This document shows, piece by piece, positions 1,101-64,000 of a stretch of DNA of 64,000 bases. The position numbers and the translations under genes are program-made. The notes beneath the pieces are model-generated. The model was not told the origin of the DNA and made no database searches. It worked only from the letters and a program-made list of their open reading frames with translations. This DNA comes from Tilletiopsis washingtonensis. Taxonomy: Eukaryota; Basidiomycota; Exobasidiomycetes; Entylomatales. The first letter of the stretch is position 1; every line of letters begins with the position of its first letter. The stretch covers positions 1 through 64,000 of the forward strand of contig NW_020312012.1 in NCBI RefSeq assembly GCF_003144115.1. The letters are read 5' to 3'.

Positions 1101-3979
1101 ATGTCCGACCGCGACACCCGTGCGTGCCGCCTCGGCTGCACCGCATCACACACCTGCTCACCTCTCACGCCTGCCCGCCCCTCGCAGTCCTCAGCATGGG
1201 CTTCGCGCCGGCGTCGATCGAGTGGGCGCTGCGTGCGACGCGCAACGCCGGGCTGCAGCCGGCGATGGACCACCTGCTGGCACACGCCGGCGAGACGCCG
1301 CCCGCGGCCGGCGACGACGACGACGAGGAGCAGGAGGCGCTGGCGGACATGCTCGGCAAGAAGGGCGCCGGCGCGCAGGAGGAGATGATCGTCGGCGCGG
1401 GCGAGGCCAAGGTGAGCGGGCAGGAGGGGCCGATCCGGCGTGCGGCGGCGAGTTGCGGCGCGCTGCGGCAGGGGATGAAGGGGGGCGGCTGGAGCGCTGC
1501 GGCACAAGGTGTCAAGGATGCGTCAGAGTCGAGTCCGTCCTGCTGTGGCGACGATTCGGGTGCCGCGCGCGAGGTGAAGGGAGCTCGGCTGCGACGGGCA
1601 GCGGCAGAGGCGACGGCGACGCCCGGCAGTAGAAGGTTCCGCGACGGGCTGCAGCGCACTGCGGGTGATGAGTTGCCGTGCAGAGACTCGATGCATGCGC
1701 TGCGTGTGTTGAACGCTGTGACGCTTGCGCGTGAAGCCAGGCGGCGCCTGCTCTGCAGCTGTCTGGGCCTGCCGTGCTGTACGTCTGGGCACGCTTCACA
1801 GCACCCCGTGGCTGGCACTCGTCGCAGCCGAAGCACTTGCACCCTTACACCGCTCGTCGGGTGTCGAGGAGAGCGCCACCTGCGCAGTCCCGCACTCAGC
1901 TTTGCCGCACTTGTCTGCACTGCCGCACTCGCCCCTCCACTAACCCTTCTGTCCAGTCCATCAAGTGCCTCGAGTGCGGCAAGATCCTCAAGTCCGCCGC
2001 GTTCGCCTCATTCCACGCCGAAAAGAGCGGCCACACCAACTTCGAGGAGAGCACCGAGGAGGTCAAGCCGCTGACGGAGGAGGAGAAGCGCGCGCGCCTC
2101 GCTGAGAGTGAGTCGGGCTGCTCACAGCACGCGCCCGTCCCGCCGCTGACCATGTCTCCGCTCAGTGCGCGCGAAGCTCGAGCAGAAGCGCGCCCTGCAG
2201 GCCAAAGAGTCCGCCGAGGAGAGCAAAGCCAACGAGAAGATCCGCCGCAAGGCCGGGCAGGACCTCGGCGAGCTGCGCGAGGAGATGCAAAAGAAAGGTG
2301 AGTCGCGCGGCGTCGTGGCTGGCGACGGCGGCGGCGAGGCGCACGCCGGTGAGTGCGCCGTGTGCGGTGTGCGGCATGCGCTGACACGCGGCAGATGGGG
2401 CGCCCGGGACCCGCTTCGACATGGCAGACATGGCGCTGGCGCTGGGCACGCCAATGGCGTCGGGCACGCCGTCGCGCTCGGCGCTGGGCTCGGCTGCCGG
2501 CACGCCGTCGCGCTCGACGCCGTCTCCGGCACTGCCGCCGCTCGTCTCGTCCTCTGCACTGTCCTCCTCGGCACTGTCCCCCGCTGCGCCGTCCTCTGCC
2601 CTTTCGTCCGCACCAGGCCCATCGAACACGCCGTCCGGCTTCGTGCTGCCCGCGCTGCACGCTTTCCCGCCGTTCTTCACGCCACAGCCCAACGCGGCGA
2701 CGTGGGCGTCGCAGGCGGCGCACTGGTCGCGTCTCATCCGCGCGTGGTGCGCGCACCACCGCGTGTGGCACCTCGACGCCGCCGGCAGCTGGGAGCGCGC
2801 CGGCGCCGACGGCCTGCTGCGGAGCACGCTCGCGGGGCGCTCGCTCAGCGAGGCTGCCACGCGGCGGGTGCTCGAGGTCATGGTCAGCGAGGGTGAGTCG
2901 TGCTGTGCCGTGTGGCGCTTTCGCTGCTGACACCCTGCGCAGGCGACGCCGTCTGGGACCCGCCTCGCAAAACCCCTCCGCCGACGCGCGCCATGATCTA
3001 CTGGCGCCGTCCCGAGGAGTGGGCCGAGCGCCTCGCGGCCTGGGTCGCACGCACGGGCCAGTCGCGCAGCATCGTGACGTTCTTCGAGATCCTCGAGGGC
3101 GACGAGGCGGGTGAGTGGCAGCCGCCGCAGCCGAGGCCCTGCACATGAGCGCTGACGCACGCACAGACTTTGCGGGGATGCCCGAGGCGCTGCTGCGCCG
3201 TGCGCTCGACGTGCTCGTGCGCGCAGGCAAGGCGCAGGTGTTCGGCGGCGCAGACGGGGAGGGTGTCAAGTTCGTCTGAGCGCAGCACGAGGTGCTGGCG
3301 GGCAGAGGAGAAGGCGGGCAGGGCGAGCGCTCGCGGCGGAGGCACCCATCTCACCATCCACTCCTCAGAGGCGATCAAGGAGGCCGAGAAGCGCAAGGCC
3401 GAGGCCAAGGCAGACGTGAGCGCCGAACTTGCCCCTTTACGGCACAGCATCTGACCCTCCTGCAGGCCGAGGCGAAGCGCCGCGTGCGCGAGCAGATCGA
3501 GGCCGACAAGCGCGAGCGCGCTGCCCGCACTGCGCGCGAAAAGGCCCTGCGCGACGGCACGCTGCCGACCAGCGAGAGCGCGCCAGTCGCCGTCTCGAAG
3601 CCGGCAGCCGCAGCAGCCCCGGCGGCGAGCACGGCCAACGAGGCGCGCCTGCGCGTGCGTGCGCCCGGCGGCATGTGGATGGGTGCGTCGAGTGCGTTGC
3701 CGTGCTGCTAATCGCATGCTCACACGTGGCACAGGCACACTCAGCGCGGACAGCACGCTGCGCGACCTCGAGAAGGCGCTGCTCGACGCCGGCAAGGCAA
3801 GCGGCTCTCTGCAGGTAAGACTCTCCGACGCGCGCATCTCTGCACGCCGCGCACGCTCACACGCGCGCCAGTTCTCCACGACGTTCCCGCGCAAGACGTT
3901 CAGCGGCAGCGACGCAAGCAAGACGCTGCGCGAGCTTGGGCTCGTGCCCAACGCCGCGCTCGAGGCCAGCGCAGTGTGA
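1101..3979 (+). CDS. UBA-UBX domain protein (UBXN1/SAKS1-like Cdc48 cofactor)
   Basis: Eight exons: 1101-1119, 1188-1411, 1957-2107, 2166-2297, 3369-3415, 3466-3682, 3735-3814 and 3872-3979. Phases agree throughout and give 325 residues. The N-terminus (LLSMGFAPASIEWAL) is a ubiquitin-binding UBA domain. A C2H2-like knuckle follows (CLECGK, then H..KSGHTNFEE), then a charged coiled coil. The C-terminus (RLRVRAPGGMWM to FPRKTFSG) is a UBX domain, the ubiquitin-like fold that docks on Cdc48/p97. The family links ubiquitinated clients to Cdc48. Intron 4 (2298-3368, about 1.07 kb) contains the whole VPS25 gene; skipping it rejoins EMQKK to EAIKEAEKRK exactly in phase, as homologues read. Intron 2 is also long (545 nt) with nothing recognised in it. 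The start relies on a short first exon (MSDRDT). The gene lies about 1 kb from the telomere. Confidence 0.88.
2298..2394 (+). other. Alternative intron joining the UBX gene to VPS25
   Basis: This 97-nt stretch has a GTGAGT donor shared with the large UBX intron, a GCTGAC branch-like motif and a GGCAG acceptor. It looks like the ordinary introns of this genome. Splicing 2297 to 2395 keeps phase 1 and reads DGAPGTRFD straight into the VPS25 ATG at 2421. It would give a UBA-coil-VPS25 fusion of about 434 residues, or the segment could lie in the VPS25 5' leader. Only transcripts can tell which. Confidence 0.45.
2421..3279 (+). CDS. VPS25: ESCRT-II subunit VPS25, nested in a UBX-gene intron
   Basis: Three exons, 2421-2892, 2943-3110 and 3167-3279, give about 250 residues. 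The hallmarks of Vps25 appear in order: FPPFFTPQPN, then QAAHWSRLIRAWC, then the winged-helix pair with IYWRRPEEWA, TGQSRSIVTFFE and GMPEALLRRAL, ending at GVKFV and a stop. Vps25 is the arm of ESCRT-II that recruits Vps20 and starts ESCRT-III assembly when ubiquitinated cargo is sorted into endosomal vesicles. The family normally begins a few residues before PPFF; here a Ser/Pro/Ala-rich leader of about 70 residues precedes it, so the start is uncertain. The gene sits wholly inside intron 4 of the UBX gene, same strand, with its stop 89 nt before that intron's acceptor. Identity is firm; transcript structure is not. Confidence 0.88.
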
Positions 3980-4022
3980 TGGGGCACGAATGCCATTGGT
4001 GACAGAGCTGTGTAGTGATCGT

Positions 4023-6514
4023 TCAGTCTCGTAGGCCGAGACTCGAGCCGCGCGGAGGCAGCAGTGGCGGCGGCGGCCAGGCATGCTCGGCGTCCAGCGC
4101 ACGCGAGTCGACCGTCCACGTGGTGCGCGGGCGCGTCGTGGACGTCGACCACAGCGATGCCTGAGAGGCGGCAGCAGGCCCAGCCGGCGGCGGCGGCGGC
4201 GGACTGACGGCGCGGCGAGGGCTGCGCTCGCACCAGTGCCCCTTGAGCGCGTGCGAGCCGCAGCAAGGCACGGCGCGCTGCAGGCGAGATGGCGAATCAT
4301 CGCCCAGCGATGTGGCCATCGTCGAGGCGCTCTCGTGCGTGTCCCTGCGTGCGTGTCGCCACGGGCCTTGCATCGTGCGCTCGGGCGAGAGGAACGTGCC
4401 GTGCGATGAGAGTGACGACGCCGAGGCGTCTGAGCGTGTGCGCTGGTGGCCCGGCGAGCACGAGCGGGGAAAGTCGTGCAGGTCGTGGCGGAACTCATGG
4501 CGCGGGTCATGGCGCTCGTCGTGGCCGAAGATGGGCCGCTCATCGCAGCGCTCGCCCTCCGCGGTGACCGACTCGATCGCCTCTTGCTGCTGGTCCTTCT
4601 CGGGCTGCAGGAGCGCCTCGGCGCTGCGGCCCAGCTCGCGTCCGCCGCCCAGACGCTGGCGCACGACAGCGGCGAGGCCAGCCACCTCCTGCGCCAGTGT
4701 CTCGATGAGCACGCCGTGCTCCTGCAGCGTCTTGGCCTGCGCGCTCAGCTCGTTGCGCAGCTCGGGCGCACTGGCGCGCGGCCGCAGCGCCAGCGACGGC
4801 GGCGGAGAGCAGGAGCTCTTGCGGCCCGTCCACGAGCCCTGGCAGCCGCACTGCCAGGTGGCAGCACCGAACTGCGCCACGGTACAGCCGGCGGCGTGGA
4901 AGGCCTGCCAACTTGCGATCAGCGATGTCCGAGCCTCTCGCACGAGTTGCTCACCGAGGGATGCGATGCGACGCTCTGAAACGTACACGGCATCAGCCTC
5001 CGTCGGCACCAGCCTCCGTAGATGGCCTCTTGGCACCCTCCACTCACCGGCACGCCGCCGCTCGACACCTCGATGCTCCACGCATGCAGACGGTCCTTGC
5101 GCTCGCGCGCCTTGCGCTGCTCGAGTGACGCCAGAAAGCCGCGATGCGCATGCGGCAGTGCAGGCGGATCACCGCGCGGCGGCGTGCTCAGGTCGGGCAG
5201 CGGCGGCAGCGGCCGGGAGAAGTTGAGGTTCGAGCCCGGCGAGATATTCGTCTGCGGAGCACGTCGAGGCGGCGTGCTCGGAGGGATGTGGCGCTCCGAC
5301 GAAGGCATCGCTGGCTGAGTCGCCGCCGCCGGTGCTGGCGCCGTCTTGTGTTCAGCTCGTCCGCCGCTCAGTGCCCGTGCGCGGGCCAGCGCCAGCTTGA
5401 CGGCCGGACTCTTGCTGCTCGGCGAGGCCTGCGATGCACGCAGCGGCGACGACACGGCCGCACGCGCCGGCGTGCCACGCTCGGCCGTCGGGACGCGCGA
5501 CGTCGGAGCCAAGTCGGCAGAGAGCCGCAGCCGCAGTCGACGTGCTGTGCGTCCGGCGCTCGCTGCCTCGTCGGGAAGAAAGAGGCGCCGCAGTCCGCGG
5601 GCCGGCGGTGCGCTGTGCGGCGGACTCGCGCCGCGCCGCGGCGTCTGCGACCAGGCCGAGCTGAGCGTCGGCGGCTGCGGGCGCGGCACGGTGCGCGGCG
5701 GGCGTGACATCGTGGCCGAGACGTGCGCATACGGGCGTGTCGGCGACTGTCCAACGCCCGCGGCCGGCACGCGCTCGCGCACCGGCAGTGCTGGTGCGAG
5801 GCGCAGCTCCTGCGGCGACGGCGTCTGACGGCTCGGCGGCGAGGGCGCCGGGCGCGGCGTCTCAAAGGCACTGCCGGGCCCGGCGGGAAAGGCATGCAGC
5901 AGGTCAGCCAGCGGCGGCGACTGCGGCGAGGGCAGCGACGAGTGCGCCGTGCTGGCGTACGTGTAGCGCGAGCGCGGGCTGCCGGCGGGCGGCGAGGAGG
6001 GTGCGGCGTGGTGGTGCTGGACGGCGACGCGCTGCAGCAGGTGCGCCGGCGGCGGGTTGCGCGGCCGCGGCGGAGGCGGCGCCTCGACGGCGTCGTCCTG
6101 TAAGCCGCTGCTCAGATGGCGAGCTCGCTCGGCGCCGGCCTGGTGCGGCGAGACGGAGCGGCTGAGCTGGCGCGGCGGCTGCGGCGGCGGTGCGAGCTGC
6201 CAGCCGGCGTGCCAGAGCGTGCTGCGTGCGGCGTGCAGGTGGGCCTCGGTGGCGCCGCCTGCTGCGGCATGCACTCCATGCTCGCTGCCGGTGATGCGGC
6301 CTGCTGCGGCGGTGCTGCTCTCTGGCGCATGCAGCGCGTCGCCCTCGCGCGAGGCGGCCGCATCGACGCTGCGCTGCGTGCGGTGGCGCGCCGGGCGTGT
6401 CGAGCGCGCGACGGAGCCGGGCGTGAGGGGAGCGGTGACGTGGGCCGGGAGCGTGCTGCTGCTGCTGCTGGCGTGCGAGCGCGCGCTGCTGGCGGCGCCG
6501 GGCGACGAGAGCAT
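4023..6514 (-). CDS. Orphan proline/serine-rich protein with a coiled coil
   Basis: I do not recognise this protein. The model has three exons (6514-5048, 4975-4955, 4904-4023), all joining in phase 0, giving 789 residues; the middle exon is only 21 nt. The first 450 residues are low-complexity Pro/Ser/Ala/Arg, with SP and TP sites typical of kinase-regulated scaffolds. A more conserved-looking block follows (SNLNFSRPLPPLPDL, then FLASLEQRKARERKDRLHAW). After the micro-exon comes AFHAAGCTVAQFGAATW, then a probable coiled coil around ELRNELSAQAKTLQEHGVLI. The tail is rich in His, Asp, Arg and Pro. No signal peptide or membrane segment is seen. It converges on the UBX gene with only 43 bases between the stops. 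The start is the first ATG of the frame and may be wrong. Confidence 0.6.
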
Positions 6515-31461: not shown

Positions 31462-33485
31462 AAAGGGGGCTGGCGTTGCGATTCCTCGCGCTCCCCGTCA
31501 CTCTTTTGTCCATTCACGCGCACCACATGCATCGACGGCTCTCACACACAATCTGATGTACCTCTAACCATGCGTGGCTGTGCGGTGAGCTTGCTTGCTG
31601 GTGAGGTGTCGTCGAGTGATGCGCGGCAGGTCATGCCACGGTGTCGTTGAGCTCAGCCAGGGGACAGCGAGGTACGGGACGGGACAGCGAGGCAGTAGCG
31701 GGACGCTCGGATCGCTGAGCGTCAGCGCATGACCGAGGGACCCTCTTGCTGCCGACGAGTTCCGCACTGCGCCTGCGTGGCCCTGTTCCGCGGTGCTCTC
31801 AGATCTCGTGCACAAGCGCTCAGCCTTGGCCTTCATACCGGGCCGAATTGTGTCCACTGCCAGCGCACTGCAGCGCGTATCAGAACGCACGACGCCCTGC
31901 GGCCAGTGCCGGCCAGCGAACCCGCCATGCCCGGCGCCGGGCCACGCCGCTGTGGAGCCGCGACGCCATGGGCCGCACGCCGCCGAGACTGCCGGGCGCC
32001 TTTGCGTGTGTACCGCTGCGCATGGGGCACGCTCGGCAGGCGCCAGCCGGCAAGGAGCGGACTGCGCCTCGTTGTGCGCTGTCTAGATTCGCATCTCACT
32101 CAGACTCAACTAGACACTGCAGCGCTACGGGTCGAGAGTGCGGGGAGCACTCGCTCGTCAGAGTCGCGCTGCCCTCATCACGCGGCAGCTTGCACGAGGC
32201 GCACGGCGGCCGGCCAATGGCAGCAGCGGCAGCGGGCCGCAGCGAGCAGCATGCTCCGCCCCGACGGCTGGCGAGCCAAGCGTCAGGGTCTTCGCAGAGG
32301 CGAGCGGAGCCGAGCCGAGGCGAGGCGGGACGGGACAAGTGGCGCCGCAAGCGCGAGACGGCAGAGAGGCAGCCGCCGCAGCGGCACCCAGCGCCTCCGC
32401 GGGGCGCCGCACGCCGCGCGCCGCGTGTCGCCGCTGGGGGCTGGCCCAGGGGCCGCCGCCGCTGGCACTCAGCACCCTTACCAGGCTCCTTCCTGACCCC
32501 CACCATCGCCGCCCCAAGGACCCTCGCTGTGCGCTGCGGCGCTCGGGCGCTCCTTCGCGACACCCGCTGCGCCGTGCTCGCCTTGCTCCTTCTCTTCGCG
32601 CCTCTTGCGTTCCCACAGCAAGCGCGGGCAAAGAGAGCGCACGCATGACAGCCCGGCGCTGCGGCGCTGCCCGGGCGACGGAGGACAGCCGGGTGCAAAT
32701 CAGTCGCATTCACGTCCTCGTCTCTTGCGACGTCTGCAATACATCTCGTTGAGCCCGCTGCGTTGCTAGTGACGCCGCGAGCGTCATGACGCTCCGTCTG
32801 CGCGACGCTGAATGCGTCCGAGGAGGCCGCGCTGACACATCGTGCGCTCGCGCCTGCGCCAGGCAGCCAGAGCTTGCTCCTGCCGCACCTCTGTCGCCCA
32901 GCACTCCAGTGCTGGAGCTGCGGCGCGCGTTGGGATGCTGTCATGGGCCAGGTGGCGCAGCAAGCCTCAGGTCGGCGTGGTCGTCCATGCGAGGCGGAAC
33001 GGCAGTGAAGCTGTCTCACGACGCCTCGCTGACGGCCGCACCGTGAGCGCTCCGCACCCTGAGGCTGCGTCACTTCTGGCACCAGGACTTGGCTGATGGA
33101 GCGGACTAACGCGGCGAGTAGCTTGCCACAGGCTCTGCATCTGCAAGTGAGGCCCAGTCCTGCCTCGCGGCACTCGACCAAAGCACCCAGCTTGCGAGCT
33201 CTGGCTGCACACACACGGACGCTGCTCAAGGGTGTTCGCAGCGGCTCCACCGTCGCAGAGTGTAGTAGCGACCAGATAGCACGCCTGCGGCTCGCGAGGA
33301 GCACCTCGCAGGACAGGCCTGCCTTGCGTGCCCGCATGCTGTGCACGCGCCGCCACGTGCTTCCAAGCAGCCAGACGCCGTCTCAATCACCTCGAAACAC
33401 CGGCTACTCATGCAGCGTCCTCCTTGCTGAGTTCATACTGTACATTCTATTGCGCCGCCTGCCCCCGTCCAGTCTGCGCCTCTGA
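31462..33485. other. Large intergenic region (2.0 kb)
   Basis: It lies between the convergent eS26 and PFK-2 genes. There is a short GGGACAGCGAGG direct repeat near 31660-31700. A minus-strand frame of 416 codons (33346-32096) crosses the region but is rich in Arg, Ala and Cys with no domain, so I do not call it. I found no tRNA, 5S or snRNA signature by eye. Confidence 0.45.
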
Positions 33486-43102: not shown

Positions 43103-46100
43103 ATGTTCTCGCCGCCCGCGCCGCACGCGCCGAGCGAGGCGCACATGAGCGTCGTGGCGCGCCACCCCAAGGTCAGCGTGCGCGTCGTGCTGCAGAGCGC
43201 CGTCTTTGAGGCCGGCGCGCCCGTCGCCGGGCAGCTGGAGCTCAGCTGTGCGACGGGCACGCGCCTGCGCCTCGGCGAGATTGCCGTCGAGCTCGAGGGC
43301 CGCGAGGGTGAGTGCAAGCGAGGAGCGCACGCAGAGACGGGCGAGGATAGCTGAGCGTGGGAAGCGAGGCAGCTGAGATGGCGACGACGAACGGAGCACT
43401 GCGCTGGCTATGAGGTCGACGATGAACGGAGCACTGCGCTGGCTGAGAGGGCGACGATGGACAGAGCACTGCGCTGGCTGAGGGTGACGATGAACGGAGC
43501 ACTGCGCTGGCTNNNNNNNNNNNNNNNNNNNNNNNNNNNNNNNNNNNNNNNNNNNNNNNNNNNNNNNNNNNNNNNNNNNNNNNNNNNNNNNNNNNNNNNN
43601 NNNNNNNNNNNNNNNNNNNNNNNNNNNNNNNNNNNNNNNNNNNNNNNNNNNNNNNNNNNNNNNNNNNNNNNNNNNNNNNNNNNNNNNNNNNNNNNNNNNN
43701 NNNNNNNNNNNNNNNNNNNNNNNNNNNNNNNNNNNNNNNNNNNNNNNNNNNNNNNNNNNNNNNNNNNNNNNNNNNNNNNNNNNNNNNNNNNNNNNNNNNN
43801 NNNNNNNNNNNNGAGCACTGCGCTGGCTGAGGGTGACGATGAACCGAGCACTGCGCTGGCTGAGATGGCGACGATGAACCGAGCACTGCGCTGGCTGAGA
43901 GGGCGATGATGCACTGAGCACTGCGCATCTGCTGCATCGTCCGCTCGGCGACAGCGCCTCTGCTGCGTCGGGCGCACAGTGCCTCGTGCTGGCGCACCTC
44001 GCTTGGCACTCCTCCTGACACTGTTGCGCTCCGCAGAGCTCTCGTCGCGCGAGCACAGCGCCACGCAGGCCTTTCTCTACAGCCGCGTGCTCTTCCAGGG
44101 CGCGCACCTGCCGCCGTCGAACGCCGTGCTGCCGGCGGCACCCATCGCCGGCGGCTACTGGACGGCGCGCAAGGGGCGCACGTCGTTTCCCTTCTCCTTC
44201 CGCCTGCCCGCCTCGGCGCCGTCGTCGGCGACGTTTGCCGGCAACGCGGCGCTGCGCTACAGCGTCAAGGCGAGCGTGCAGACATGGTGGAACGACGCCA
44301 AGCACATCGTCTGCGCGCGCACCGACGCCGACGTCGTCGAGCGCTGGGAGGACGAGCACGACGAGGCGTACCGCCAGCCCATCGAGGCCGTCGCCGACAC
44401 GCGCCTCTTCATGGGCGGCACGGGCGCCGTGTGGTGAGTCTGCTGCAGCGTAGCGCATCACCCTCACCTGACACTGTCTGCAGGCTCGAGGCCGGCATCA
44501 CCGAGCAGCTCTTCGTCGCCGGCTCCAACATCCTGCTCCGCTGCGGCGTCAAGAACAACACCAAGCGGCACCTTTCCGGCCTCAAGGTGTACATCGCGCG
44601 GCGCCTCATCGTCTCCGGCCCGCCCGGCGCGCCTGCACGCATGGACGCGCCGGCGCCGCACATCACCGAGATCCTGCATGAGCAGTCCTTCAACGGCGCC
44701 GGCTACCAGTTCGGGCCGGGCGAGGAGCTCGTGACAAACGTGCTCGTCGACCTGCCGCGCGAGCTGCGCAGCGTGCGCAAGACGCGCCTCTTCGAGGTGC
44801 AGCCCATCGCCATCGTCGAGGCGCAGCTCGGCAGCTTCGCCAAGCCGCTGCAGGTCGAGATTCCCTTCTTCGTCGCGCATGCCGCCAGCCTGCGCCGCGC
44901 GCCCGAGCCGACGCTGGATGCGCTGCACCCGCACCCGCACGGGCACGCGCCGCCGCCACGCTCGCACTCGTCGGCCGGACACCACGGCGCCCACCATGGC
45001 GCTCACGCGGCGCTGCCACACCGCGCACGCCCGCACCACCAGCACGCCGCTGCCCCGCCCTCGCCCTCGCTCGCGGCGCTCGAAGCGTACGGCGCCGAGC
45101 GAGGCTGGTCTCCGGCACCCTGGGGTGGCGCTCCGCCATCGCGGCCGGCGTCGGCAGGCGGCTTTGTGCAGCTCCCGGCCTCGCCGCTGCCCTTTGCCGT
45201 CGATCCCAGCGCTCATCAGCTGCAGTGGGACCCGCAGGCACATGGCTGGGGCGCAAGTGCCTTCGTTGTGCCGCAGATGCCGCGCTCTGCCAGTGCAGCA
45301 CCGAATCTGGCACAGCAGCAGCAGTTCTTCGCCGTGCCACCGACGGCTGCCTTTGCGCCGCCGCAGCGCAGCGTCAGTGCTGCGCCGACTCTGGCGCCGC
45401 AGCACCTGCGCACCGGCACGGCTGGCAGCACGCACCTCATGCAGCAGCAGGTGCAGTCGCGCAACGTCAGCGCGCCGGGCAATCTCGGCTCGCATGGCGC
45501 GTCGGAGCCAGCGCAGCTGCTTCTGCATACGCCGCAGGCCGCCAAGCCCTCGCCACTTGTGCCCTCGTCGCCGCTTGCGCCCGAGGCGCCCGTCGAGGAA
45601 CTGGCTGGCCTCGCCACCATCGAGGAGGACAGCGAGTCTGCGGCCGGCACGGTGCGCTCGCTGCGTGCGCTCGGCGCCGCCGGCAGCGTGAGCCGGCGCG
45701 ACGTGGCCAAGTTCGAGGAGATGGCCGACGAGCACGAGGCGCGCGAGGAGATGCGCAGCATGGGCATGGTGCCCGAGGAGGAGCCTTGCTCGCCGAGACC
45801 GGCACAGGTCGCCTCGATCAGTCACGAGGCAATCGTCGCCAAGACGCTGCCCGGGCCGCCCGTGCCCAGTAGCAAAGAGAGCCGCTCGACGGCACGGCCG
45901 CGCGCCAGCGACCTCTTCGCCAAGCCCGCACCTGCGGCGAGTGCCCCGCAGCCCGGGCCAGACTTGCCGACGACGCTGCGCAACGCAGCACCTCCAAGCG
46001 AGAGCAAAGCTGCGACATCTGCTGCCTCTCCTGCGCGCGCCGGCCTCGCAGCCCTCGAGACGCGTCTGCGCTCTCCGGCGCCCGATGCGCCGCAGATGCC

Positions 46101-49016: not shown

Positions 49017-52000
49017 ATGGTCTGGCTGCTCGAGTGCGACTTTGCCAACACCGAGGGTGAGCGGCGCCGCGCCCAGTCGCGCTGCCGTGCTGAGCCTCTT
49101 GCCCGCAGCACCGCCAACGCGCCGCCTGCTGCGCCCCAGCAAGTCGTACGCCTTCGGACGCAAGCCGCCGGCCGACATCATCATCGCCAGCAAGCAGGTC
49201 TCGCAGGATGCCGGGCGCATCAGCGTCGCCGCCTTCAGCGCCGATTGCGTCGCCGACGCCGCCGCACGCCCGGCCGTGACGCTGCACGCGGGGCGCAAGG
49301 GCATGCGCGTCATCCTGCCCGCCGACGAGCCGGCGTACCGCGCCAACCTCGCCGGCTTCGTCGGCGCCGTCGTCGAGCCGGACACGGAGCGCCGCGTCGA
49401 CGACCAGTCGCTCGTCGTCGTCGCCAAGAGCGTGCCGACGCCGCGGTGAGCTGCGCCAGTGCTCGCAGCCACGCCCAAGACTGACCTCGTTGCGCAGCCT
49501 GGTGTGGCAGAACTTCACCTTCTGCGTGCACCGCGAGACGGCAAAGGAGATGGAGCCGCGCGTTGCCGCTGCCGCAGTCATGGGTGCGTGGTTGCAGCTA
49601 CGCCTAGCCATTCACCCGCTGACATCGCGCAGGCGCTCACATCGTCGTCAGCAAGACGTTTGCCGCGGCCGACTACTACGTGACGAACAAGGCGAGCCTC
49701 ACGACGCGCCTCATGCTGGCGCTCACGAATGGCGTGCCCATCGTCTCGATGGCGTACCTCGACGAGGTGCTGCGCCTCGGGGCCCTCGCCGATGGCGCCG
49801 AGAGCTCGCTCGAGACGAGCTTCGATATGCCCGACCCCGACATGTACAAGCCCGAGCCGCTGAACATCGAGCAGGCCGCAGAGGGCGAGTTTGACACCCA
49901 CGCCTTTCTCGATATGCTCAGCGTCGACGTGCGCCGCCGCACTCTTCTCGTCGGCACCACAGCGCTCTTTATCCGCACTGGCACGGTGCGTTGCCTTCCG
50001 GCGCAGCCTGGTGCGGTTCTGCTGACAAGCTTGCACTCGCAGGAAGAGGCGAGCGCACAGATGATGCTGGCTGAGCTAGCTGGTGCGAAGAACGAGTCGA
50101 TTGAGTCGAGCAGCAGCTACCTCGAGAGCGACAGCAACCTGCGCCGCATCCTGCAGCAGCACAAGACGAAGGCTGCGGCTCGCCTGGCTGCGCTGCCTGA
50201 TGCTGCTGAGGTTTCCAAGCGCGCACCTGAGGGCGGCCTCGTCATTCTCGTCGAGGCTGCCATCCGCTGCGGAGAGGAAGAGTGGTACAGGCGCCTGGCG
50301 CGCATCGCCTCGGAGTGAGTAGCCTGTCGGGATGTGAACGTGCTTGCGCTGAGCATCTTCACAGGCTCGGCATCAGCATGCCCGACCCTGGCGCCACGAA
50401 TATCTCGCAGGCGATTCTCCATGTCGACGTCCGCACGTTCCTCGGCTCAGCGCCATCGTCCGAGAGCGCGCCGAGCCTGCGGGACCAGCCAACGCAAGAC
50501 TACACAACGCAGCCGCCTGCCGAGTCTCTGCGCTCGGGCGGCTCGCAGACGACCCAGGAGCCTGTGACGCAGGCCCCTGAGTCGATGGCTCCTCCCACGC
50601 CGCCGCTGCCCGCGCCAAGTGCAGGCGCCGCTGATGCGCCGATGTCTGCGCCCGCGGCTCCAGTGAAGAGGGTGAGTAGCGAAGAAGTCTGTTGCACGGC
50701 ACGCGGCTGAACGCTCCCCATCTGTCTGCAGCAGCTGAAGCGTCGCGCCGACACTGGGAGCGTGGCCAATCCGCTGGATGCGCTCTTTGCGATGGATGAC
50801 GACCCGTCGTCACGACCAGCGCCAGTGCAGTCACTGCTGTCGTCGGAGCAGAGCGCGCCTCGCTCTGCTCCACGCCTCAAGCGCCGCGCCGGTGCTCGAC
50901 CCTCAGACGCGTGGAACGCCGCCTTTGGCGGAGGGCCCAGCGCAGAGGACATGCTCGCAGAGAGCAGTGGAAGCGGTGCGGCAAACGCCGGCTTCTCGGC
51001 GTCGGCATCGCTGGGCGCCTCGCTCGACTCCACGGGGCAGCTCAAGAGCAAGCGCTTCCGTGCGCAGCTCGATCAAGAAGACGCACGCGCGCGGGCGGAG
51101 GCCTCAGGTGTCCCCTACGTTGAGCCTGCGCCTCCGCCAACAGCCACGCAAGGGGCGGACGCAGGTCGTGCGGACGTAGCGATGGATGACGCACCGGCGC
51201 CGTTCGAGAAGGAGAAGCGCAGCAAGCGGCCTGCGCCTGCAAGTCCGAGCGATGAGTCGCCTCAACGTCCGCGCGCCAAGCGCGTCGAGGGCGAGGCCGA
51301 ACGTGCCCGCGTGGGCACTGGCGCCGACGAGGAGCCTGAGCGCAACGGCGTGCGCCGCGAGCGGCCTGGCCAGGCGGGCATCGCCCCAGGCGAGAAGGCA
51401 CAGCGCGATGAGGGCTTCCTGATGGCGCTCAAGAGCCGCAGCAAGGGCCGTGCCAAGCTCGACCGCTTCGACGAGGAGTTCAACCGCCTGCGCATCGCGC
51501 GTCCGCCGAACGCCGGCGGCTGCCTCGCCGATCCGCTGATCGTCAACCCGGCTGATGTGGACGACCTGGCGTACGAGGCGTTCAAGGCCGCGCCGCCCGA
51601 GCAGCTCGAGGAGCTCTTCCGCATCTCGGCCGCGGGCAACTTCGTCGAGGTCGACTTTGTGCCGCTCGTGCGTCAGCGGCCGGCGGCAGCCGTCGTCGTG
51701 CGTGATGCGAGCGTGCCAAACTTCAAGAAGTTCAAGTCGGTGCGTGGTGCTCGAGCCGCATCCCGCATCTCAGCGTACTCACATCGCGCACAGACGAACC
51801 GCACCAAGCGCACTCCGATCGCGCTGAGCCTGCCAGACGAGAATGACTATGTGTCTGGAAGTGAGTCGGGTGCCGTGTCCTGCTCAGCAGCTGCGCTGAC
51901 CGCCTTGGCAGCGCGTCGCGCCGGGCCCTCCGTGCCGTCTGCGAGCGTTCGACCTTCTCAGATCGACGAGCTCGACCAAGACGACGGCGACGTGCTGGCC

Positions 52001-57670: not shown

Positions 57671-60600
57671 TCACGACCGCTTGGCACGCACGGCGGAGGC
57701 CAGGAGCTCGGCCCATTCGCCAAGCGCGGCTCGCGCGTCGGCCTCGTCGACCAGCTCCCGCGCGCACTCGGCGACGAAGATCAGCTTGCCGCTCTCAGCG
57801 GAAGTGGCGACCACCACGTCGAGATCCACCTGTGGCGAATGTATCAGCTCGTGCTCTGGACCTCACCGCGCCGGCAAACTCACCTGCAGCTCTGGGAACA
57901 TTAGCGCCGGAGGCTCGCCGAGGTGGACATCCGCCGCTGTCACGGGCGCACTCTGCTCCTCCTGCGACAGGCGGTGCTTGACGGGCATGCGCTGCCAGAG
58001 CGCATCCTTCTTCGGCTCGGGCGCCTCGTCGTCGTTGCGGCCCTGCGTCGCAAAGAGCAGGTTGATCGTGACGTTAACGAGCGGCTGTCCCTTGCGGCCC
58101 GTCCACTCTGCGATGCGGCTGATGCGGCTCTGCTCGACCTCGCGCGGACGTCCCAGCAGCTCCGACTGCAACTTGCCGGCGACGCGCGCGAGCTCCGCCT
58201 GTTCGTCCTGGCTGCCCTGCAGGCGGACGTGCAGCGGCGCGACGTTGAGACACGGTGCCGCCAGGTTGGCCAGCTCCTCCGAGCCGCGGCCTGTCTGGAT
58301 GATGCCGAATGTCGCCGCGGAATCGCAGCGCTTGGCTTGCACCAAGGCCCACGCTCCGAGCACCAGCGACGACGACGAGACGCCAATGTCGCGGGCACAG
58401 GAGCGTACATCATCGGCCGTCAGCTCGCTCCGCACCTCGATGTCGAAGAGCGTCACGGCCGGACCTTCGGACTTGGCAGCCTGTGTCGGCCAGAGTGCCG
58501 GGCTGAACTTCTCCCCCAGTGCCTCGCGCCAGTACTTCTCCTGCGCGCCCTCGTCTGCGCCGGACGAGCTGAGGAAGCCCTCAAAGTCTGCGGATGCGCT
58601 GGCTTCCTTGCCCTGGTACATGGCCTCCAGATCGCCGAGGAGCAGCGGCAGCGACCACCCGTCTGCGGGAGTGAAGAGAGCGTCAGCTGGTGAGCAGCAC
58701 ATGCCACAGACGACTGACCATAGAGAACGTGTGCCATGTTGAGGACGACATAGTCGTGCTTCTTGCCATGCAGCAGAAGCAGGCGACACTGCGCTGCATT
58801 CGCCGGCATGTGCTCGCAGAGCAGCGAGCGAGCCTGCTGTGTCGCTGCTTCGTCCTCATCTGCGCCCTCGAGCTCCTGAACCTGGAGTGTCGGCCCGTCT
58901 TTGGCGATCAGAAGAGCGAGTGGCTGCGAAGCATCGTTGGTAGGCACCGGGATACCGCGCAGCACCTCGTGCTTCTCGAGCAACGAGCTCCAAGCCTGCT
59001 CCAGCTGCTTCACATCGATGCGTTCGTTGGCGCGCCGCAGCACGCAGACCTGGAAGGCGCGGCCGTTCGAGCGCTGCCAGCACGCGAAGGCATACTCGAC
59101 GCCTGCGCTGGACACGAGCACCTTGCTGCCTCGGCGGAGAACCTCGCTGATGTGCGAAGTCGCAACTTCGGCCTGAGATCCGGATAGCGTGACAATACCG
59201 GTGGAAGTCGGCTTCTTCGATTCCGCGTGCCCATTTGGCGAGCCAGACACGAGCCGCAGAAGCTCCTTGATCGTGGGAGCTCGAACGATGTCCGTGGGCG
59301 CCAGCTTGATGCCTGCCTTACGACAGCGCGACGAGAGCTGGATGGCGGAGATTGAGTCTAGGCCGACGGACGCAAGCTTCGTCGAAGGCAAGAGCTTGTC
59401 GACGTCGACCCGCAGGATCTGTGCGGCGAGCTTGCGGACCTCCTGCTGCTGCCCGCTGAGCTCTGCCGCGGGCTCGTCGCCAGACTCGGAGCTCTGCTCG
59501 TTCGTCTCAGCAGGCTTGAGCTTGGCGGCCTTGGCCTCAGCCTCCGGTGTGACGACGGTGCCGTTCGGCTGCGAGATGATGTCGACGACGGCCTGTCGGT
59601 AAAGCTGCAGCGCCTCATCCAGCTGCTCGCGAGAGAAGACGTCCGCCGCACAGCTGGAGAACACGGCGAAGCCATCGCGCTGCTCGTGCAGCTCCAGATT
59701 CAGGCTGAACTGCGTCGCGCCTTCGTCTGTGTCAGACGAGCGTGGCACGGCGCTCCACGGGCGCTCCGTCTCGCTGCCATCGCGCTCAACAAACGGTTGG
59801 AACACGAAGAGCACGTCGGAGATGGCTGGCAGCTGCAGAGCCTTCTGGATGTCGCGCAGAGAGGCATGCTGCGCCTTGAGACCCGCGACATTGTCGGCAT
59901 GGATGCGGCGCAGTGCCTCGCGAGCCTTGAGGTGGCTGTCGAGCTGCACACGGCAGGGGATCGTGTTGAAAACAGGGCCGACCACCTCGCCAGCGTCTGG
60001 CAGCGTCCGGCCCGAGACAACCTGGCAGAAGCTGATGTCTACGAGACCAGAGTATCGTGCGAGCAGCTGCGCGAGAGCGAGCTGGCCGATGCTTTGCGGC
60101 GTGACCTGGTAGCGTCTGGCCACGCGCCGCAGCTGCTCGCCCTCGTCGGCAGAGAAGTCAATGGAGGCGCGCCAGGCAGCCGTCGAGTCAGATCGGCTGG
60201 CGTCACGCTCGGGGAGGAAGCGCGTGCTAGAGCCGCGCATCCGCTCGGTCCAGTGCTCGGTGGCTCGCTTCTCCTCACGCACGATGCGGCGTGCCAGCGG
60301 GATGAAGGCCGGCAGCTTCGGAGCCTCGTCGCCGGCGAAGATGCGAGCGACGTGTCCAAGGAGGTTCGCGAACGACACTCCGTCATACATGGCGTGGTGC
60401 ATCGCCACCACGAGATGAGTCGCATCCTGGCCGTGCGCCTCGAGCAAGCACCACGGGGGCTTGCTCAAGCCGCCCTCGCTGCCTAGCGATAGGCTGCTGA
60501 CCGCTTGCTTGGCGAGATCGGCAGGCGCATCCTCAGTCTGGATAGTTTTCCAGGGCAGTGCAAATGCGCTGTGGACGACCTGTGCCCATCGACCTGACGA

Positions 60601-63600
60601 TTCGGCGAAGTGAAACGACGTCCGCAAGATGTCGAATGCGCCCAGCGCCTGGTCCCACGCGCTGCGCAGCTGTTCAGCATCCGCAGCGCGCCGAAGACGC
60701 AGCGGGAAGGCGTGCACGTAGAGCGTGCCCTCCGAGGCAAGCGTCTGTGACAGCATGCCGGCTTGCAGCGGCGTGCACAGTGCGAGCTCGGGCTTGTCTG
60801 CATCGTCAAGTGCCAGCTTGGGCAGACCTCCGAGCTCCTCGGCGAGCTTTGTCTCGCCGTCGTCAGCTGAAGCGTCGGATGAGTCGCCGTTGCTGCTCTG
60901 TCCTTGAGCGTCGATCTTCTGGGCGACTGCACGCGTGCTGTCGCCCTGAATGATGTCGACTGGGTCCACCGACAGGCCCTTCTTCTGTAGAGCCCGCGAG
61001 AGAGCGACAGCACGCAGGGATGTGAGGCCCAGCGACACGAGCGAAGCTCCAGCCGTAACGCTGCTGGCCGGTTGCTGGAGGAAATCGGCGACGATGCTGG
61101 TGACAGACTTGAGTGTCTCAGCGGAAGGCTCCGGGCCCTCGTCACGCGCCTTGCCGCGACGGCGCAGCTTCGGCCTGCTGTTGGCGCTGTTCTCGGGTCG
61201 GCCTCGGAGCTTCAGCTGCCCATCATCGCCCGCGAGCAGTGCAGTCACGACGCTGTCCAGCGAGTTGAGCAGCTCCGTTGACACCGCCGAGTCCAGCTCG
61301 GAAGTCCGGGCAGCTCGAGCCTCAATTGAGTCCGACTTCTCGACGAAGAGCATCTCGATTGCGAGAATGAACTGCGAGCAGTCGAGTCAGCAGCTGAAGC
61401 GCTCTGAGGTATGGCACAACACACCTCCGGCGCAGGCGGAGAGCCCTCCAGATGCTTGAATGAGCTGTAGCCCGACGCGTCTTGCTCGTGTCTGCAGGAG
61501 AACAGCACGTCGAACAGGCTCTTGACGCCCAGCCAGCCCTGTACCTGGCCGAGAGAAGAATGCTCGTGTGGCAGCGAGGCGACGAGGCTGTCGTGGGCAC
61601 CTGACAGGAAGCTGTCTGCATCGCCCTGTGCCAGGTCGACGTGCATCGGCACGAGAGTGACAAGCGGGCAGACAGCGTTCTCGATGCCGTCGACGGCGAG
61701 GTTGCGTCCGCTGCGCACCGTCTGCGGAAGGTTGAGCACGGGTCTGTAGGCGGAAGAGCGAGGTGGCACTCACTCCGAACACTGCATCTTGTGACCATCC
61801 GAAGGCCGAGCGTCCAGCAAGCGCAAAGGCGGCGTAGAAGAAGGACTGAAGCGTGATGCCGAGCTCGCTGCATCGGCTCTGCACGTCGCTCAGAGAGGCA
61901 GCAAGGCCGTGCGTTGAGCGCTCAGACTTGGCTCCGGCCTTTGGCCGCCGCGACGGCGCTGATTCCTGACGCTCCACTGCGGGTGCAAGGGCATCCTGCC
62001 AGTACTTCTTGTGCTCCGCCTCCGACGTCTCCGCGATCGAAGAGAGGATGTCTGTAAGTGCCACTGCGCTCGGCAGCTCTTCGCTCGAGCCTAGAAGCCG
62101 ATCGAGATCGGTCATGAGGGCGCGCACGGCGAATGCGTCGTACACCGCGTGATTCAGCGAGACGGCCATGAACCGAGGCTTGCTCCTCTCAGTCCCACAC
62201 AGCGTCAACTGCCAGCACGGCGAGCTGATGTCGTCGTTGATGCTCTTGGCGACGCTTTCGGCTCTGCCTTCGAAGAACTTCAAGAAGCCTTGGCTGTCTT
62301 GAACGTCGGCATCTGCATCGAAGAGCGGCAGCTCTGCAGCATTTGAATGAAGAACGACCTGCGCGAGTGCCCGGTCGGTCTGCAGGAAGCCGGTGCGAAG
62401 GATTTCGTGCCGTGCCACAGCTTGCGTCCAGGCATCTGTGAGCTGCTCGCGAGTGATACCGTCCTGCAGCTCGTACAGGAAGTGCTGCACGTAGCGCGAC
62501 GGGTCCTGCGTGATCTGGAAGAGCACGCCCGGCTGCACAGGCAGCGGAGGCAGGATGCGCTCCACATCGTCCGCCTTGAAGACGGCCTCCACGTCCGAGC
62601 GGTGCTCGTCTGCGAAAGCCGCAACTGCCGCAGCCGCCTCGTCGTTTGAGCGGCTGCTGCCTTCGCTGTGTCCTTCGATTGCGGCAGCGCAGTCGGCGAT
62701 GCGTCCGATGCTCATCAGCTGCGCCACCGAGAAGCGCGCGCCGAGCTCGTTGCGTATCCGCGTCGTCAGCACGGCGAAGTTGAGCGAGCTGAGGCCAGTT
62801 TCGAGAAGCTTGCGGCTCGGTGAGAACGAGCCATGACGCGCCTGTGTGAGCTGCTCGATCATCGCGATGAGCTTCGCTTCGAGCTCGGTGGGCTCGCGCT
62901 CGTCCGCTGCCTGGTCGCCTTTCGCGCCGCCATCGCCATCCTCCTCTTGCAGCTCCATGAGCTTGTCCATGTCCGTCTCCTTGAACAAAGCAATGAGCGG
63001 CTTGGCATCGATCTTGCCGTTGTGCGACAGCGGAAGAAACTCGGTCGGGATGATGTGCGACGGCCGCATGTACGAGGCCAGCCCTTGCTCGGTGGCATCG
63101 CGCAGCGTCTCCATCAGTCCTGGCGACAGCCGCGCGAGCGCCGGGGCAGCGCGGCGATCATTGGCCGAGATCGCATCGTCGTTCGGCGCGACAAAGGTGA
63201 CCAGCAGGTCAGAGCCGCCTGCGGCCTCGTGCGTCGTCACGACGGTGACTGCGTCGAGCGGCTGCTCGTCGGCGGCGTCGCGCACCACGGCGCTGACGCC
63301 CTCGCTCTCGATGCGCACGCCGCGTAGTTTGACCTGCGAGTCGATGCGCCCAGAGATGCTGATCGTGCCGTCGTGATTCATCCGCACGAGGTCGCCCGTG
63401 CGATATGCGCGCGATCCGGGCGTGGGCCAGGCGATGAACGCCTTCTTCGTGACGTCTGGCAGATTGAGATAGCCCCGACCAACGAGCGGCCCCTCCACAA
63501 TCAGCTCGCCCGGGTGGGCACGCGGGACAATGTTGAGGTTCGCATCGGCGACGTAGGCGCCGCAGCCTGGGAATGCCAGGCCAATGTTGTCCCTCCGCTC

Positions 63601-64000
63601 GTGTACGCCCTCCAGACGCCGAGATGTGCAGCCAATCGTGGCCTCTGTCGGCCCGTAGAAGTTGGCCAGGATCACGTCCGGGTGGGCGGCCCACTTCGCC
63701 AAAACCTGCCAGAGAACAGTCAGTCACGGCTCTGCGCCAGCTCACGCCTCGACTCACAGCATCGGTCAGCTTCTCGCCGCCAGAGACGAGATACTTGATC
63801 GGCAGCTCGTTGGGCTGCTTGGTGAGTGTGGCCTCGATCATGCTGGGCACCATGCCGATCTGCGCGATGCCCAGCCGCTCGATGTTCTCCTGCAGGTCCG
63901 CCAGCAGCGCGAGGCGGGAGGCGACGCTGACAAGGCAGACGCCGAGCGCCCACGACTGGACAATCTCGCTGATGTGCACGTCGAAAGCCACCGCTGAGCT
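57671..64000 (-). CDS. Ferrichrome-type siderophore NRPS, 3' part (A-T-C-T-C-T-C)
   Basis: The gene enters at the window's right edge, so its 5' part is missing. Segments 64000-63758, 63705-61774, 61721-61425, 61371-58719, 58662-57884 and 57829-57671 keep phase and code about 2020 residues. First comes the end of an adenylation domain: NFYGPTEATIG (A5), GELIVEGPLVGRGYLN (A6), YRTGDLVRM (A7), KLRGVRIESEG (A8), LSHNGKIDAK (A10). Then carrier domains ETGLSSL, LGLTSLRA and VGLDSIS alternate with three condensation domains (NHAVYDA near 62140, HHAMYDG near 60390, AHVLYDG across the intron at 58663-58718). A terminal T-C-T-C array is the signature of SidC/Sid2-type synthetases, which assemble cyclic hydroxamate siderophores such as ferrichrome from hydroxyornithine units and amino acids. 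Confidence 0.93.

Follow-up and report, generated by a model that had tools for sequence, protein, structure and literature searches.

Ski7 and Hbs1 are members of the same gene family. It was shown that the fungal SKI7/HBS1 gene gives rise to two functionally distinct proteins via alternative splicing; ESTs from C. neoformans and U. maydis document skipping of internal exons, their inclusion may yield a truncated Ski7-like protein, and the mechanism in basidiomycetes is, according to the authors, not entirely clear (Marshall et al., 2013, PMC3597508). This is the nearest known case to the locus described here, i.e., one fungal gene encoding two proteins by exon skipping. However, splicing of SKI7/HBS1 was shown by RNA while at our locus it is predicted only, and the alternative C-termini here originate from unrelated families, a UBX domain versus an entire ESCRT-II subunit. 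In the cholinergic locus, VAChT and ChAT are encoded on the same strand with 5' exons in common, and we know of no in-frame fusion among its products. VAChT is located inside the first intron of ChAT, resembling our locus in that a whole gene lies in the intron of a functionally linked gene (PMC6875150). The exons shared at our locus are coding, in contrast, and would form part of the VPS25 protein. Moreover, polycistronic read-through was described for Agaricomycetes, where neighbors on the same strand are transcribed together and termination signals are missing from the first gene, similar to what is proposed here; the tandem open reading frames are separated by stops, unlike the single spliced protein predicted for our locus (Gordon et al., 2015, PMC4503453). 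Finally, VPS25 genes of other organisms encode, as does the one reported here, an ESCRT-II subunit with tandem winged helices, and the passages on VPS25 in PMC1579232 mention neither a nested nor a fused VPS25. Among the matches listed in a search of the open-licence literature, no title or abstract opening described a nested or fused UBX-VPS25 gene.

The locus lies near one end of a 64-kb window, i.e., the whole stretch of Tilletiopsis washingtonensis DNA that was analyzed. Telomere repeats, (CCCTAA)n, occupy about positions 1–95 of this window, placing the UBX gene approximately 1 kb from the chromosome end. Joining its eight predicted exons on the + strand yields a 325-aa open reading frame plus stop codon. 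Exon 1 (1101–1119) contains the start codon at 1101, exon 2 (1188–1411) encodes the UBA domain, exon 3 (1957–2107) the C2H2 finger and exon 4 (2166–2297), ending at the high-scoring donor 2298, a coil, while exons 5–8 (3369–3415, 3466–3682, 3735–3814 and 3872–3979) encode the end of the coil and the UBX domain. Intron 2 (1412–1956, 545 nt) has no coding potential according to the local intron and coding models. Pfam assigns UBA_7 (E 5.3e-7), an OTU1-type C2H2 finger (3.5e-7) and UBX (4.3e-7), all above the cut-offs. C2H2 fingers of this kind are also carried by fungal members of the UBXN1/SAKS1 type, and the arrangement of this type, an N-terminal UBA domain, a coil (read from the sequence) and a C-terminal UBX domain, is found here in one spliced reading frame; by its domains the predicted product is a Cdc48-type adaptor. 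From 3369 up to the UBX domain the spliced reading frame is devoid of ATG codons, showing that the C-terminal part of UBX needs the long splice across the fourth intron and ruling out two separate genes for the two halves of UBX.

This fourth intron (2298–3368, 1071 nt), which has to be skipped for the UBX protein and whose phase-1 junction leaves the reading frame open into the UBX domain, encloses every exon of a predicted VPS25 gene on the same strand. VPS25 exon 1 (2395–2892) includes 26 nt in front of the first in-frame ATG at 2421 and is followed by exon 2 (2943–3110) and by exon 3 with the stop codon (3167–3279). Translation from 2421 (coding exons 2421–2892, 2943–3110 and 3167–3279) would give 250 aa; further in-frame ATGs are present at 2430 and 2454, all three upstream of the conserved core, resulting in proteins of 239–250 aa. 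The predicted protein matches PF05871 in Pfam (E 2.1e-35), and its best PDB chain is 3cuq_C, named VPS25 (E 6.1e-27), which we take to be human VPS25. The alignment spans residues 74–249 of our protein and residues 5–175 of the chain and takes in the motifs FPPFFT and GVKF, assigning the protein to the VPS25 family, which is characterized by a tandem winged-helix domain, a PPF motif near the N-terminus and conservation of the C-terminus, while residues 1–73 appear by eye to be rich in Ala, Ser and Pro. Searches with VPS25 in genome-contig and viral-contig collections, which include no fungal genome collection, and with UBX in the viral-contig collection returned no relative. Both VPS25 introns are in phase 1, which also holds for introns III and V in PMC1579232, and the positions look compatible. 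The best coding segment in the intron holding VPS25 scores 22.1, and none exceeds 8.7 in the 14 other introns of the window longer than 110 nt. The value of 8.7 belongs to a weak coding-like segment (50984–51070) within a predicted 537-nt intron (50672–51208), perhaps a missed exon. The results for VPS25 and UBX bear out two claims of the earlier note, a complete three-exon VPS25 on the same strand inside the intron and an acceptor at 3368 that rebuilds the UBX protein; its zinc knuckle corresponds to the C2H2 finger given above.

The splice and coding statistics were derived from the window itself. A purpose-written gene finder trained on it predicted 19 genes with 100 introns, and the donor, acceptor, branch-point, length and coding models were rebuilt from the 18 genes and 90 introns outside the locus. 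These 90 introns have a median length of 54 nt, 77 of them measuring 46–79 nt. The largest exon of each of the 18 genes was compared to Pfam, resulting in matches at E up to 1e-3 for nine, of which one (oxysterol-binding) stays below the curated cut-off. Elsewhere in the window, the largest exon of a predicted gene at 57671–63841 (− strand) encodes condensation and PP-binding domains as found in non-ribosomal peptide synthetases, and 300 N at 43513–43812 mark an assembly gap within a predicted 729-nt intron. At gathering thresholds Rfam reports no structured RNA family in the window, making doubtful a tRNA-Ala (anticodon GGC) that ARAGORN places at 31863–31958 (− strand).

Phase 1 applies to each of the exon ends 2297, 2348, 2892 and 3110 as well as to the exon starts 2395 and 3369, and UBX exon 4 can therefore be joined in frame either to VPS25 or to the remaining UBX exons; the alternative sites are phase-compatible and give two intact predicted proteins. 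Splicing from donor 2298 to 3369 yields UBX, and from the same donor to 2395 a 434-aa fusion with a 97-nt intron. Both were claimed by the earlier note and are reproduced here. Its donor 2298 is not the single one, however, as a second phase-1 donor, GTGAGT, is located at 2349, and its description of the 97-nt intron as classical fits poorly with a length outside the 46–79 nt range of most local introns. Together with acceptor 2394, donor 2349 defines a 46-nt intron (2349–2394) that would link exon 4 in frame to VPS25 in a 451-aa fusion. With the donor GTGAGT, the branch point GCTGAC and the acceptor GCAG (87th, 100th and 31st percentile, respectively), this intron scores 13.0, the best of four UBX-to-VPS25 introns scored, and surpasses 72 of the 90 training introns, the other 18 scoring higher. 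The intron 2298–2394 reaches 9.5 and is a possible but not the favored fusion junction; the score of donor 2298 taken alone equals the highest among the training introns. Order-2 random sequence totaling 2.56 Mb contained two sites scoring 12.99 or more, i.e., about one per 1.3 Mb, and 41 sites scoring 9.5 or more, corresponding for a stretch of 123 nt to chances of about 1e-4 and 2e-3. In the real window 40 of 42 non-overlapping intron-like sites scoring at least 11 lie in predicted genes. This figure involves some circularity, since similar scores guided the gene finder in picking introns, which does not apply to the random-sequence control.

The long intron 2298–3368 scores 3.9, mostly due to its length and a branch point in the 8th percentile (acceptor: 57th percentile); a weak branch point and a length far above 46–79 nt count against this splice. 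When all model scores are added up, the fusion via 2349–2394 reaches 132.9, the fusion via 2298–2394 125.4, UBX via donor 2298 120.2 and UBX via donor 2349 122.8; this last form is slightly above the one using donor 2298 and would gain 17 residues. An acceptor at 2427, combined with donor 2349 (9.5) or 2298 (9.7), is not favored, as its distance to the branch point is about 42 nt compared to 8–27 nt in 87 of the 90 introns. However, the unconstrained gene finder itself chose 2349–2427 over 2349–2394 when fitting everything into one gene, which counts against the shorter intron. The resulting 585-aa model, in which VPS25 is read into UBX, was rejected because the finder has no means of placing one gene inside another and because VPS25 loses its C-terminus and stop through the junction at 3262.

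Use of donor 2349 would extend exon 4 by 17 codons (2298–2348, 51 nt), retained in the fusion mRNA. The log-likelihood ratio of this segment in the UBX frame is +3.9, compared to an average of 4.8 (sd 3.2) for in-frame exon segments of that size, which are mostly training data as well. Among 231 frames of short introns, scaled to 51 nt, none reached 3.9; the share reaching it was 0.3% for segment-frames located outside predicted genes (n = 3192) and 0.4% for exon segments in the wrong frame (n = 3670). Two segments further downstream count against the fusion: positions 2395–2420 are non-coding-like in every frame (−4.6 in frame), and the Ala/Ser/Pro-rich stretch 2501–2640 is weakly coding-like, with −3.0 below ordinary exons and −14.2 and −29.2 in the other frames.

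Gene boundaries were compared to those of the 18 predicted genes outside the locus. In 17 of these the 50 nt preceding the start contain 58–74% pyrimidine, the sole exception being the gene at 63841 (40%), which lies close to the edge of the window and may be incomplete. The UBX start is preceded by 72% pyrimidine, whereas the candidate ATGs of VPS25 show 44–48%; the average of 298 ATGs inside exons is 50%, and 10% of these reach 60%. Over the 123 nt ahead of the start codon, the C-over-G skew ranges from −0.01 to 0.52 in the 18 genes and amounts to +0.29 for UBX but −0.20 for VPS25. Similarly, start-context scores are 1.8–3.8 in the 18 genes and 1.9 for UBX, compared to −1.5, −0.2 and −4.4 for the VPS25 ATGs at 2421, 2430 and 2454, a contrast that is inflated since the finder chose starts partly by the same score. 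At the 3' side, the lowest 40-nt GC content within 89 nt after the stop is 0.475 for UBX and at most 0.625 in 17 of the 18 other genes, the remaining one showing 0.70, so that the dip is not universal. For VPS25 it is 0.675, the gap between its stop and UBX exon 5 (3280–3368) having no terminator-like GC dip, and the T fraction after the VPS25 stop (0.09) is the lowest of 20 gene ends. Random coding pieces have a lowest GC of at least 0.675 in 34% of cases, suggesting that the 3' flank of VPS25 is closer in character to coding sequence than to the end of a gene; their lowest GC is at most 0.55 in 17% of cases, a caveat on dips as gene-end signals. Stretches of 40 nt with at most 53% GC start nowhere in 2298–3974 and once, at 1936, in 1101–2297; the next ones start at the UBX stop, and the GC dip that begins there and continues beyond it (3975–4043) represents the terminator-like signal of the locus. 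Nearly all other predicted genes of the window thus carry three boundary signals, namely a pyrimidine-rich leader, a favorable start context and a drop in GC behind the stop; UBX has all three and VPS25 has none. Averaged over the window, pyrimidine-rich 50-nt stretches before starts and GC dips after stops mark the gene borders and might be useful for annotation; 17 of 19 gene ends, including UBX, show a 40-nt dip to at most 53% GC no more than 150 nt after the stop.

According to these splice-signal, coding-potential and gene-boundary statistics from one and the same window, the VPS25 block resembles an internal segment of the UBX transcription unit that is used alternatively, more than a gene complete in itself. 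The main rival, which we regard as rather unlikely, is a plain nested gene: VPS25 would have its promoter in the UBX intron or in exon 4 and start at 2421, 2430 or 2454, the UBX transcript would splice over it, and the intron 2349–2394 would be unused or part of the VPS25 leader. The in-frame ATGs ahead of the conserved core fit such a gene, as does U. maydis VPS25, a single-exon gene encoding 232 aa, showing that a VPS25 close in length to our 239–250 aa exists without UBX exons in another fungus, in agreement with a start at 2421–2454 (PMC1579232). However, no leader-, start- or terminator-like signal surrounds VPS25, a leader containing 2395–2420 would have its first ATG, at 2395, out of the VPS25 frame (in a poor context, −6.1), and the coding-like segment 2298–2348 would be left unexplained.

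Less probable still is a mixed situation, in which most VPS25 comes from a weak start belonging to VPS25 itself and read-through yields minor amounts of the in-frame UBX-VPS25 chimera, which would have no function of its own. In a mushroom, read-through transcripts were found for 7.9% of transcribed loci, with upstream genes lacking A-/U-rich termination signals, and the genes joined in this way also have separate transcripts (PMC4503453), which favors such a mixture. Yet an accident would require neither a chimeric intron scoring above 72 of the 90 outside introns nor a coding-like extension. We give very little credence to a second promoter at about 1900–1950, near the end of the unusually long, non-coding intron 2, from which a shorter transcript with its first AUG across the junction 2107/2166 would encode coil-VPS25 or coil-UBX without UBA domain and finger. 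Positions 1901–1950 resemble local gene leaders (74% pyrimidine, C-over-G skew 0.53) and could be an internal promoter; on the other hand, a high pyrimidine content may simply be a property of long introns near their 3' ends, and the proposal has no independent support.

With moderate confidence we favor one transcription unit, which gives UBX by skipping of VPS25 and a UBA-VPS25 fusion by its inclusion. A single promoter upstream of 1101 and a single terminator after 3979 would serve the whole locus, VPS25 presumably lacking a separate promoter, and the pre-mRNA, about 3 kb long, would have two splice outcomes, both probably in use. For skipping, donor 2298, perhaps 2349, would be joined to acceptor 3368 to encode the UBA-C2H2-coil-UBX protein. 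For inclusion, exon 4 would be extended to donor 2349 and spliced to acceptor 2394, placing the UBA-finger-coil part on the N-terminus of VPS25 in the 451-aa protein; translation of this mRNA would end at 3279 and the UBX exons would become 3' untranslated sequence. As the UBX part needs the long splice, both outcomes would need to be used if selection keeps both domains. The dual-outcome locus proposed by the earlier note thus remains plausible and is strengthened by the statistics, with the favored junction corrected from 2297–2395 to 2348–2395 (13.0 versus 9.5).

The fusion protein might enter ESCRT-II, where its UBA domain could add ubiquitin binding. More tentatively, VPS25 may be present mainly as the UBA-finger-coil fusion, forming an extra ubiquitin-binding arm on ESCRT-II, and the choice of acceptor following exon 4 (2394 or 3368), perhaps set by the donors 2298 and 2349, may divide one ubiquitin-binding head between the Cdc48/p97 and ESCRT routes. 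If this is true, such loci call for caution in automatic annotation, which can merge or split them, as our own gene finder fused both genes in the 585-aa model. Moreover, two unrelated machines for ubiquitinated cargo would be served by one gene and one ubiquitin-binding head, and a single splice choice would act as the balance between them.
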